Source: Bacteroidaceae bacterium (GTDB lineage: Bacteria; Bacteroidota; Bacteroidia; Bacteroidales; Bacteroidaceae). Taken from it: a stretch of 64,000 nucleotides of DNA. Position numbers and translations under genes: made by a program. The notes under the pieces were generated by a model. It was not told where the DNA came from and did no database searches. It worked only from the letters and a program-made list of their open reading frames with translations. Where the stretch lies: positions 1-64,000 of the forward strand of contig JAGASY010000013.1 in the NCBI GenBank assembly GCA_017621515.1. The letters are read 5' to 3'. Shown piece after piece: positions 13,568 through 62,814 of the stretch (positions are counted from its first letter, which is position 1; every line of letters starts with the position of its first letter).

Positions 13568-14412
13568 CTGTGCATACAACCACATAAACAACCATAAAAC
13601 ATACAAAAACAGCCCTTTTAAAATGACAAAATGATATTTTCGCCCAAAATGAAAATTTAACACTTCAAGCGATTCTTTGACGAGGACGAAGAATCGAAAT
13701 TTTTAGCTCAAAGATAAACTATTGAAAATCAACAGAATACACAACTTCTCAAAACACGCAAAAATATGCGCCGAACGCAATTTTTTGAAAAATTCGTGTA
13801 TTCTGATAATACATTGATTACTAATATTTTATGTTTGAACTTACCATTTCTACCCTCAAACATCCTCAAAAATCCACTCACTTTCAAGTTCCTGTTCAAA
13901 CACTCCTCCAAAGTAAGGAATTACACACTTCTTAACATTTCAACCGAAGCAAACTGGCTTTTTCTCCATTCCCCACTGTTTTTTTCTTTGCAGCGCACTG
14001 TTTTCAAATTTTCAGCGCACAGTGAGAGAATTTGCAGTGCGCTATACTGAAAATTGCAGTGCGCTGAAAATGTGACGACAGTGCGCTGGAATTTTGAAAA
14101 CTTAGTACTTTTTTTCCAAGAACTCTTCACCGGAAGTGAATTAATGTAAAAGAGCTGTTCCAAAACGAAACACTATTTCACAATTCTCTGGAGCTTTTGA
14201 AAATGCGCGTAGAATCCCCATTCTTCGAGAAAAGTTCGTCGCGCCTCATTTTGAAGCGTTCCAGAGGGCTTAGAATTTTAACATTTGACAAAATCAAAAA
14301 GACAGCATTTTGCCGGATTTTCAACAAACTGAAATTAAAATAACAAAAATCATTATCATTTTGTCAGAATAATTTTTCCGTTAAAAATCGTATTCAAAAA
14401 AAATTTTATAGA
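13568..14412 (+). repeat. Large intergenic element, copy B
   Basis: Same orientation as copy A. An R1 unit lies just outside at 13534-13562. The subterminal inverted repeats are perfect: TGACAAAATGATA at 13624-13636 and TATCATTTTGTCA at 14354-14366, 743 bp edge to edge. A hairpin lies at about 13755-13798, the array at 13991-14088 and the R box at 14246-14305. The element fills the gap between the two-component operon promoter and the divergent tRNA-Pro gene. Confidence 0.85.
13991..14088. repeat. 22-bp-phased CGCACTG array in element B
   Basis: Motifs start at 13991, 14013, 14035, 14057 and 14079, period exactly 22 bp. The first two read CAGCGCAC..., the last three CAGTGCGCT.... The array begins 367 bp from the L-side arm and ends 278 bp from the far arm, matching element A. 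Confidence 0.9.
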
Positions 14413-20479: not shown

Positions 20480-20620
20480 GACAAAACGAAAATATTCTGT
20501 CCAGAAGCTTCTCTTAAACCATATTGCACACAGTGCACATCCAATCCTGCCATGCAACAGACATAAAAAATATGTTATAATCCACCCATTAGAAAGACAT
20601 TTCCACTACACTGAAGAGTA

Positions 20621-20746
20621 GAAAACAGTGCGCTGAGTTCTCAAATCAACAATGTTGTTTTTATAATCAACAGTGCTGTTTACAAAATCAACAGTGCTGA
20701 TTTTATAATCAACAGTGCTGATTTGAGAATTTAGCGCACTGTTTTC
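20621..20746. repeat. 126-bp palindromic array E (four 21-bp units)
   Basis: Four units of AATCAACAGTGCTGATTTTAT-like sequence start at 20644, 20665, 20686 and 20707, period exactly 21 bp. Each is itself near-palindromic (AATCA...TGATT). The array is bracketed by arms 20621-20648 and 20719-20746, inverted repeats matching at 26 of 28 bases and including CAGTGCGCTG / AGCGCACTG, the motif of the large elements. The whole 126 bp can fold as one long imperfect hairpin. It lies between the thr-operon terminator and the PgpH promoter. Bases 20747-20875 hold nothing I can name. Confidence 0.9.
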
Positions 20747-20875
20747 AAGTTTTCCCTGCACATAATATATGTTTACAAGGCATTGTACATAATAGTATGC
20801 TTCCTTTAAAAATACTGTGCCTTCTTCAAGATATTTGAGCCAATGCCACAGAAATGATTTCAACCGTACAGGGCG

Positions 20876-20919
20876 AAAAAAAATGGTGCGTGCACCGGAA
20901 AGACCGTATGCACGCACCA
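20876..20919 (-). terminator. Intrinsic terminator of the thr operon
   Basis: TGGTGCGTGCA (20884-20894) pairs perfectly with TGCACGCACCA (20909-20919), and on the minus strand eight T residues follow. It lies 126 bp after the thrC stop. Confidence 0.9.
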
Positions 20920-21044
20920 ATTCTCTAATTTCTATACCACAGGTAGGGACAATGCCCTTTCTGTATTTCTCTATATTGTTTCCGTACTCCTTATTATATA
21001 GAAGTATTTTCCTTTATGATTATCCGTACTATCCCTCTATATCA

Positions 21045-26531: not shown

Positions 26532-27365
26532 CCATAAAAAAATTTTTGAATACGATTTTTGAGAGGGTATTCAGTTTTGACAAAATGAAAAGCGTACTCC
26601 AGCATTCCGATCCAATTTTACAGATTTTCCATTCAAATACTATCTTTTTGATTTTGCCAAATGTTAAAACTCCAAGCCCTCTGGCACGCGTCAAAATAAA
26701 GCTCACTGAACTTTTATCGGAGAATGGGGATTCTGTGCGCATTTCGTGAAGCCTCCGCAAATTGTGAAATAGTGTTTCATCTTGGAATGGTTCTTTCACA
26801 TTTATTTATCTCCGGCGAAGAGTCTTTTTGAAAAAAGTACTAAGTTCGCAAATTTTCAGCGCGCTGTTTTTTTCTCCACAGCGCACTGCAATTTTATTTG
26901 CAGTGCGCTGCAAATTCTCTCACTGTGCGCTGAAAATTTGAAAACAGTGCGCTGAAAATAAAAAAACAGTGGGGAATGGAGAAAAAGCCTGTTTGCTTCG
27001 GCTGAAATGTTAAGAAGTGTATAATCCGCAGTTTTGGAAGAACATCTGAACAGGAACTTAAAAATATGTAGATTTTTAAGAGTGTTTGAAGGTAGGAAAG
27101 GTATATTTTTCTATAATTCATTAATAATCAACAGATTATCAGAATATGGAAAACTTTCAAAAATTTGCGTCCGACGCGTTTTTTTGAAGATTTTGAAAAG
27201 TTTTATATTCTATTGATTATCAATCAGTTATCCTTAAACCAAAAATTTCATCTCTTTGTCCTCAATAAAAAAACTCTTCAAATGTTAAATTTTCATTTTA
27301 GGCGAAAATATCATTTTGTCAAATTGAAAAAGTCGGATTTAGCGTGTTTTTCGCTGTTTATATGA
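26532..27365 (-). repeat. Large intergenic element, copy C
   Basis: Inverted relative to copies A and B. Far arm TGACAAAATGAAA at 26578-26590 and L arm TATCATTTTGTCA at 27309-27321 are 744 bp apart edge to edge. The R box is at 26643-26702, the array at 26857-26954 and a conserved hairpin at 27155-27189. R1 units lie outside the L end at 27364-27480, as in the other copies. It fills the gap between priA and the thr promoter. A 60-codon frame at 27034-27216 resembles one in copy B (see findings). Confidence 0.85.
26857..26954. repeat. 22-bp-phased CGCACTG array in element C
   Basis: Motifs start at 26857, 26879, 26901, 26923 and 26945, period exactly 22 bp. The first is the full palindrome CAGCGCGCTG. 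The array lies 367 bp from the L arm and 279 bp from the far arm, as in copies A and B. Confidence 0.9.
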
Positions 27366-43325: not shown

Positions 43326-43674
43326 CCTTAGCGAGAAAGCATTCAAGCATGCCCTACAAAAAAGATGCCAATGGCGAAAAACAGGAACAGGCAAGAAACG
43401 TTTTAGTCACAAAAAGCATAAAATCAGGTACAAATAGACAGCAAATTACTACATTTGCCGCCACTATGATTTTCTTAATTGTTAAAATTCCAAGTCCTCT
43501 GGCATGCGTCAAAATGAAGTGCACCGAACTTTCCTCGCAGAACGGGGATTCTACACGCATTTTCAAAAGCTTCCGATAAATGTGAAATAGTGTTTCATTT
43601 CGGAGTGTTTCCTTTACATTTATTTATTCTCGGCGAAGAGTCTTTTTGGAAAAAGTACTAAGTTTTCAAATTTT

Positions 43675-43772
43675 CAGCGCACTGTCGCCACATTTTCAGC
43701 GCACTGTAAATTTATTTGCAGTGCGCTACAATTTTAAGAACTTAGTAGATTGGAGAAATTTTCAGCGTAGAT
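43675..43772. repeat. 22-bp-phased CGCACTG array in element D
   Basis: Clear motifs start at 43675, 43697 and 43719 (period 22). The next position, 43741, is degenerate, and a partial motif CAGCGTAG sits at 43763, again on the 22-bp grid. Confidence 0.82.
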
Positions 43773-43971
43773 TTTTTGAAAAAGCACCGGGAAACGGAGA
43801 AAAAGACAGTTTACCTCAGTTGAAATGTTAAGAAGTGTATAATCGACTGTTTGGGGAGAGCGTCTGAACAGAAACCTGAAAATGGGTGGTTCCGGAGCGG
43901 TGTTTGGGGGTTAAAATGGTAAAAATGACTGTAATTTATTAATAGTCATCGAATTACCGGAATACTCAGAA

Positions 43972-44008
43972 TTCTCGAAAAATTGCGTCCGGCGCATTTT
44001 TTCGAGAA
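43972..44008. other. Conserved hairpin of the large elements (best copy)
   Basis: Arms 43972-43987 and 43993-44008 pair at 15 of 16 positions around the loop TCCGG. Counterparts occur at the same place in copies A (about 352-384), B (13755-13798) and C (27155-27189). Compared with C, two stem pairs differ by compensating changes (C-G to T-A and G-C to A-T). Confidence 0.75.
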
Positions 44009-62336: not shown

Positions 62337-62688
62337 CGAAAAACCTTTTACTTTGTGTGTGTATGACTCTTATTTCTTTGCGAATCTCAGTCTTTTTGTG
62401 TTTTTGTAACGGCAATGACAGGCGGAATCCACTTACGTGCATCCGAAAACAAAAGCTTCGCATTCTAAAAATCGCAGAATCTATCTTTTCAGCTATTACT
62501 TTAGTTTCAAGTTCCGCAAGTATTGATTTTCTGAGACAGAAGAGAAAACAGTCTTATTCTACAAGACAAATGAGAACTTTCGTCACTGTGGTCTAAAGCG
62601 AAATATTTGCCTATATCGAAGAAAAAACACTATACTCTATATGCACAGACTATGCTTTGAAAACATATTGTATGTACGGAAAAGGAAT

Positions 62689-62814
62689 GAAAACCGTGCA
62701 CCGAATTCTCAAATCAGCACTGCTGATCATAAAAACCACACTGCTGATTTTGTAAACTGCACTGCTGATTACAAAAACCACAGTGTTGATTTGAGAATTT
62801 TACACACCGTTTTT
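62689..62814. repeat. 126-bp palindromic array F (four 21-bp units)
   Basis: Four units start at 62712, 62733, 62754 and 62775, period exactly 21 bp, each with a CACTGCTGATT-like core. Outer inverted arms (62689-62720 and 62783-62814) contain CTCAAATCA / TGATTTGAG. Total length and unit offsets are identical to array E at 20621-20746, though many bases differ. It lies between the divergent zinc-peptidase operon and cysS. The rest of 62337-63081 contains no gene that I can support. Confidence 0.88.

Follow-up and report, generated by a model that had tools for sequence, protein, structure and literature searches.

Structure of loci E and F

The window, the 64,000-nucleotide stretch of DNA analysed here, contains two 126-bp palindromic cores, E and F, which lie in opposite orientations, a point missing from the preliminary description. 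Core E (positions 20621–20746, plus strand) is located between the genes for threonine synthase and a 7TM-HD phosphohydrolase, and core F (62689–62814, minus strand) between a zinc peptidase gene and cysS. Core E is an imperfect palindrome with four 17-bp dyads spaced 21 bp apart. Unit 1 (AATCAACAATGTTGTTT, 20644–20660) is followed by units 2 (20665–20681), 3 (20686–20702), and 4 (20707–20723), all on the plus strand, and unit 4 is the most perfect dyad of the family. Units 1 to 4 of F occupy positions 62775–62791, 62754–62770, 62733–62749, and 62712–62728 of the minus strand. The coordinates, the 126-bp length, the 23-bp offset of the first unit, and the 21-bp period reported previously for both loci were reproduced by re-reading the sequence and by TRF, which independently identified 21-bp arrays at 20644–20724 and 62718–62791.

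The units of the E/F family are imperfect 17-bp dyads with the consensus AATCnnCAsTGnnG[A/T]TT. The two bases that follow CASTG are variable (CT, TT, TG, CC, CA, and others), and CAGTGCTG, previously taken for the unit core, is therefore just one variant of several. The motif CAGTGCGCTG, common to E and to the repeats A–D described below, has 12 occurrences in the window, where 0.1 would be expected. E had been thought to be bracketed by this motif; however, the exact copy is present on one side only, in the left arm (20626–20635, plus strand), and the other side contains TAGCGCACTG, which is one base off. Conserved tail modules are located at 20764–20787 (plus strand) for E and at 62649–62672 (minus strand) for F. 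E retains only the right terminal inverted repeat (TIR), TTCGCCCTGTACGGTT (20862–20877, minus strand), with one mismatch to the TIR of its subfamily. The TIR of F, TTCAAGTTCCGCAAGT (62506–62521, plus strand), also has one mismatch and is of the end type of the TTCAAGTTTCGCAAGT subfamily.

Copy number, spread, and length of the family

The family has approximately 44 copies in the genome of the window (G000) and approximately 57 in that of the sister species Prevotellaceae bacterium BH.3_6 (G001). In G000, 38 copies of 126 bp, together with shorter and cut-off ones, were identified using blastn and a covariance model, whereas the 57 copies in G001 comprise 42 of 126 bp, three of 105 bp, 11 of 84 bp, and one of 63 bp. 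The covariance model is based on 57 aligned copies, with the variant copy L052 left out of the alignment, and all 57 aligned cores fill its 126 columns without gaps. Copies within a genome diverge at 12–17% of positions. The similarity of E and F is far beyond chance: a blastn search of its own genome with E gives E-values to 2e-65 elsewhere, and F as the query performs likewise. With approximately 80 copies of exactly 126 bp in the two genomes, the assignment of E and F to one family with fixed unit spacing stands, and the shorter complete copies, rather than being of unrelated lengths, differ by multiples of 21 bp.

Cores thus change length by whole 21-bp units (from 126 to 105, 84, or 63 bp), and the flanks change in 22-bp steps, the core-to-tail distance being 17 bp in 72/80 and otherwise 39, 61, or 82 bp. 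In contrast to the array, the core-to-TIR distance is affected by small indels in 4/13 (176, 182, 184, and 184 versus 183 bp). Many copies are no more than a few hundred bp away from the end of a contig, for example C270, C64, C142, C51, and C77 in G001, and C64, C130, and C100 in G000. For this reason, repeats of the E/F family probably break assemblies, and the counts given here may be too low.

In G002, a third species of the genus, a diverged relative occurs whose AAAC..GTTT units often follow one another at 21-bp steps. G001 was the sole true carrier in a pattern scan of the 84,980 species of GTDB r220; matches in Treponema and Lachnospiraceae were due to chance, and the array is absent in both. 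Plasmid, phage, and IMG/VR collections yielded no match, and an origin of the family from these sources was therefore dropped. So far, the E/F family is confined to one narrow group of Prevotellaceae-like bacteria, represented by three genomes of one genus.

At position 5 of the unit, G000 has A or C (C 65/148, G 0/148), whereas G001 has almost exclusively A or G (G 79/168, C 1/168), and the dyad partner changes correspondingly in each species. At least one orthologous insertion, L043/C194, exhibits the position-5 switch across its units. The difference in letters may reflect amplification from different masters, homogenization, or coevolution with a binding protein. It is conceivable, if rather doubtful, that the array is the target of a putative sequence-specific DNA-binding protein with a specificity that shifts between species and is followed by dozens of dispersed four-site arrays, which would make it a satellite-like platform on a selfish element.

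Ends of the element and target duplication

The TIRs, defined from the G000 copies, are 16 bp long and lie outside the palindrome. In one subfamily, the ends of which are TTCAAGTTTCGCAAGT and its reverse complement, they are 369 bp apart; the spacings of the TIR pairs are 369, 369, 361, and 326 bp, the last belonging to a two-unit copy. The ends of the E subfamily, TTCGACCTGTACGGTT, were found as one pair, in L017. Only a few copies have both TIRs, and many, including E and F, have one that is recognizable. The sequences flanking four copies of one subfamily match at 9/9, 8/9, 6/9, and 6/9 positions, with a peak at length 9, which indicates a 9-bp target duplication. The total of 29/36 matches compares with 14.1 ± 2.8 under the null and was attained in 0 of 20,000 AT-matched draws. 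No target duplication was seen for the E subfamily. The flanks are conserved but mosaic, and their subfamilies are linked to the core type.

E and F had been described as array-only relatives of other repeats; instead, the palindrome forms the core of a larger element that has TIRs and target duplications of its own. In accord with the definition of a MITE, this element is short (about 370–435 bp), non-coding, intergenic, and of high copy number in both genomes, has TIRs, although a minority of copies keep both ends, and generates a 9-bp target duplication, as seen in four copies of one subfamily. We use the label MITE-like because no autonomous element with the same ends was found: the 91%-complete G000 draft contains no IS-sized pair of E/F-family TIRs, and no transposase was noticed among its long ORFs near solitary TIRs. 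Since the draft is 91% complete, a transposase partner could be missing from the data. Solitary TIRs were rejected as traces of an autonomous element, with no transposase noticed among the long ORFs; one such site has a core-less copy and one a different nested palindrome.

At positions 2314–2474 of L212, the family ends enclose an unrelated palindrome, GTAGGGCTGCCCCCGGTACAGCC..., instead of the core. Outer inverted repeats GTAACTATTCAGCGAA / TTCGCTGAATAGTTAC surround L028 (left −88 and right +307 from the core) and L033 (left −105 and right +309). These outer repeats place some copies within larger units, which suggests nested elements. A further repeat, ending in TTTGACAGACTCC...GGAGTCTGTCAAA and containing GGAGTCTGTGAATACA in tandem, is present in several intergenic regions, including L018 (approximately 682–800) and positions 66–179 of the window; in L018 it forms a near-perfect palindrome adjoining the E/F-family element.

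Genomic sites and comparison with the sister species

Of 98 copies, 97 are intergenic. According to gene calls from a home-made caller, gaps between divergent genes contain 22/66 copies, versus 12% expected by length, and convergent gaps contain 6/66, versus 17% expected (P = 0.047). The segment containing E (20532–21034) is replaced in G001 by approximately 125 unrelated bp, and the site is empty there: between flanks of 92% identity, G000 has 504 bp and G001 has 125 bp. The sites of L018, L033, and L037 are also empty in G001, which gives four empty sites with both flanks recovered. At L033 and L018, the difference from G001 exceeds the element itself. Because the gaps differ beyond the element, the empty sites were discarded as a source of clean insertion points, and the target duplication is unreadable there.

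Both species have a copy in the F gap; the orientation of the core agrees between them, but the flank modules are in opposite order. Approximately 13 of the 41 G000 copies share an intergenic gap with a G001 copy, some supported on one side only, in a sample biased towards filled sites by the targeted retrieval of G001 copies. L043/C194 and L051/C196 are clearly single insertions, the latter with four units versus two. Flank modules are non-homologous at several shared sites. Since homologous flank modules are present at only two or three shared sites, the idea that the cores of orthologous copies change far more rapidly than the flanking sequence was dropped. Among copies with a clear tail side, the core is inverted relative to the tail in 1/36 in G000 and 10/54 in G001, and one copy, in C8, has lost its core. 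The flips and the loss of the core are consistent with palindrome-driven rearrangement.

Relationship to known repeats and to A–D

Transposon-like repeats of this kind are known, whereas the E/F family and its architecture look new. A literature search on MITEs and Prevotella yielded the work on Porphyromonas gingivalis, and no title or abstract among the results described the E/F family. The nearest published relatives in design are the BrickBuilt MITEs of P. gingivalis, which contain 1 to 22.8 repeats of 23 nt, have 12-nt IS5-type TIRs, and generate inconsistent target duplications (PMC4596501). Both families are intergenic and dispersed, have a leader and a tail around a short tandem repeat, are predicted to form long stem-loops, and have a narrow host range and no transposase of their own. 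Compared by description, the E/F family differs in having mostly four units, a core that is palindromic as a whole, different 16-mer TIRs, and a 9-bp duplication; its units are of 21 bp rather than 23 nt, and its TIRs are not of the GAGACCTTTGCA kind. MITE464/PgRS of P. gingivalis is likewise a MITE with internal tandem repeats, but its repeats are 41 nt long and its TIR is GAGACTGTTGCA (PMC4596501).

A–D (approximately 145–1004, 13574–14409, 26640–27139, and 43500–44000 of the window) are copies of a separate 750–850-bp repeat and are 73–78% alike. This repeat has at least 40 scored places in G000 (311 first-look candidates) and many in G001, and its possible ends are TGACAAAATGATATTTTC and GAAAATATCATTTTGTCA. 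Part of the previously proposed relationship of E and F to A–D persists: A–D are also of high copy number, and the presence of AAAACAGTGCGCTGAAAA and of 22-bp phasing, seen as 22-bp flank steps in the E/F family, supports a common motif at the level of sequence. However, the A–D repeat is of a different length and lacks the E/F TIRs (no match within three mismatches).

DNA array or RNA hairpin

Each locus had been predicted to fold into a single hairpin with 63-base arms. The fold of E as RNA is stable, far below shuffles on either strand (z −8.9 and −9.2); however, it is imperfect, and array pairs 38–89, 41–86, 44–83, 47–80, 53–74, and 59–68 are mispaired in 51–56 of 57 copies. The arms covary, with 24/61 pairs changed on both sides and 243 cells with two-sided changes, whereas shuffles gave 113 and slid controls were far lower; the palindrome is therefore maintained or repeatedly re-copied. 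The stable folds and two-sided changes would be explained by a transcribed RNA hairpin, such as an attenuator or an RNA-stability or processing element, selected for pairing and scattered by duplication. We consider this unlikely, since pairing is not what is kept at array pairs that are mispaired in nearly every copy, and the mispairs have no consistent excess of G.T over A.C on either strand. Furthermore, the core flips relative to the flanks, the copies are enriched in divergent gaps and depleted at convergent 3′ ends, and no Rfam match to E or F exceeds the gathering score, the only one in the window being a tRNA. Judged by letter matching, within-unit and whole-hairpin symmetry are about equally good, and the dyads within units are conserved. 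With moderate confidence, we favour a phased DNA array bound by a putative protein, because several array mispairs are fixed, the unit dyads are kept, and the unit letters differ species-wide. Both 21 and 22 bp are close to two helical turns, which also speaks for a phased array; the putative protein would be dimeric.

Proposed nature of the E/F element

E and F probably represent the cores of a single non-autonomous, MITE-like element that is restricted to the genus and has split into subfamilies, of which each locus represents one; the core may serve as a protein-binding platform. The TIRs, the 9-bp duplications, and the empty E site in the sister species argue for the MITE-like character. 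An element of about 370–435 bp would move as a unit with its 16-bp TIRs, and its insertion, preferentially into intergenic targets and especially divergent gaps, would produce the 9-bp duplication seen in one subfamily. The middle of the palindrome consists of head-to-tail 17-bp dyads with a spacing of 21 bp, which corresponds to two helical turns, and is framed by the CAGTGCGCTG arm, from which the 22-bp-phased flank starts. The phased dyads may provide a cooperative platform for a dimeric DNA-binding protein, either a transposition accessory or a host nucleoid or regulatory protein, and such a platform would require exact array spacing and permit changes by whole units only. Loss of units, loss of the core, and inversion of the core with respect to the flanks may all be promoted by the long palindrome through hairpin formation or template switching. 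Against this explanation, no transposase with matching TIRs was found in the 91%-complete assembly, few copies have both TIRs, with E and F each keeping one, and the arm covariation could also result from selection for hairpin formation in RNA or DNA.

REPINs and BIMEs are dispersed intergenic palindromes with quasi-species-like variation and are associated with RAYT transposases, from which TIRs with a 9-bp target duplication are not expected. The E/F family resembles them in its dispersed intergenic palindromes, subfamilies, mosaic flanks, and quasi-species-like variation. Nevertheless, spread by a RAYT (Y1) transposase is very improbable and already largely refuted, as no Y1_Tnp gene exceeds the cut-off in G000, G001, or G002 (PF01797 matches are below the cut-off in G000 and absent from the other two), and the family has TIRs, the target duplication, and a phased four-unit array. 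The shared gaps, including the two clear single insertions, would also fit ancient, vertically inherited chromosomal sites without current mobility, for example a chromosome-organizing array. This is unlikely as the whole story because of the empty sites and the target duplications, and the non-homologous flank modules at several shared sites also argue against it.

The MITE-like element defines a mobile family with ends, a target duplication, and empty sites, known so far from one Prevotellaceae-like genus, in which three genomes have it. Its copies provide a natural series of one, two, three, and four phased sites, in both orientations and in two species-specific alphabets. With this series, one can ask what the bacterium, or a parasite of it, gains from maintaining dyad arrays in helical phase at dozens of sites rich in promoters.
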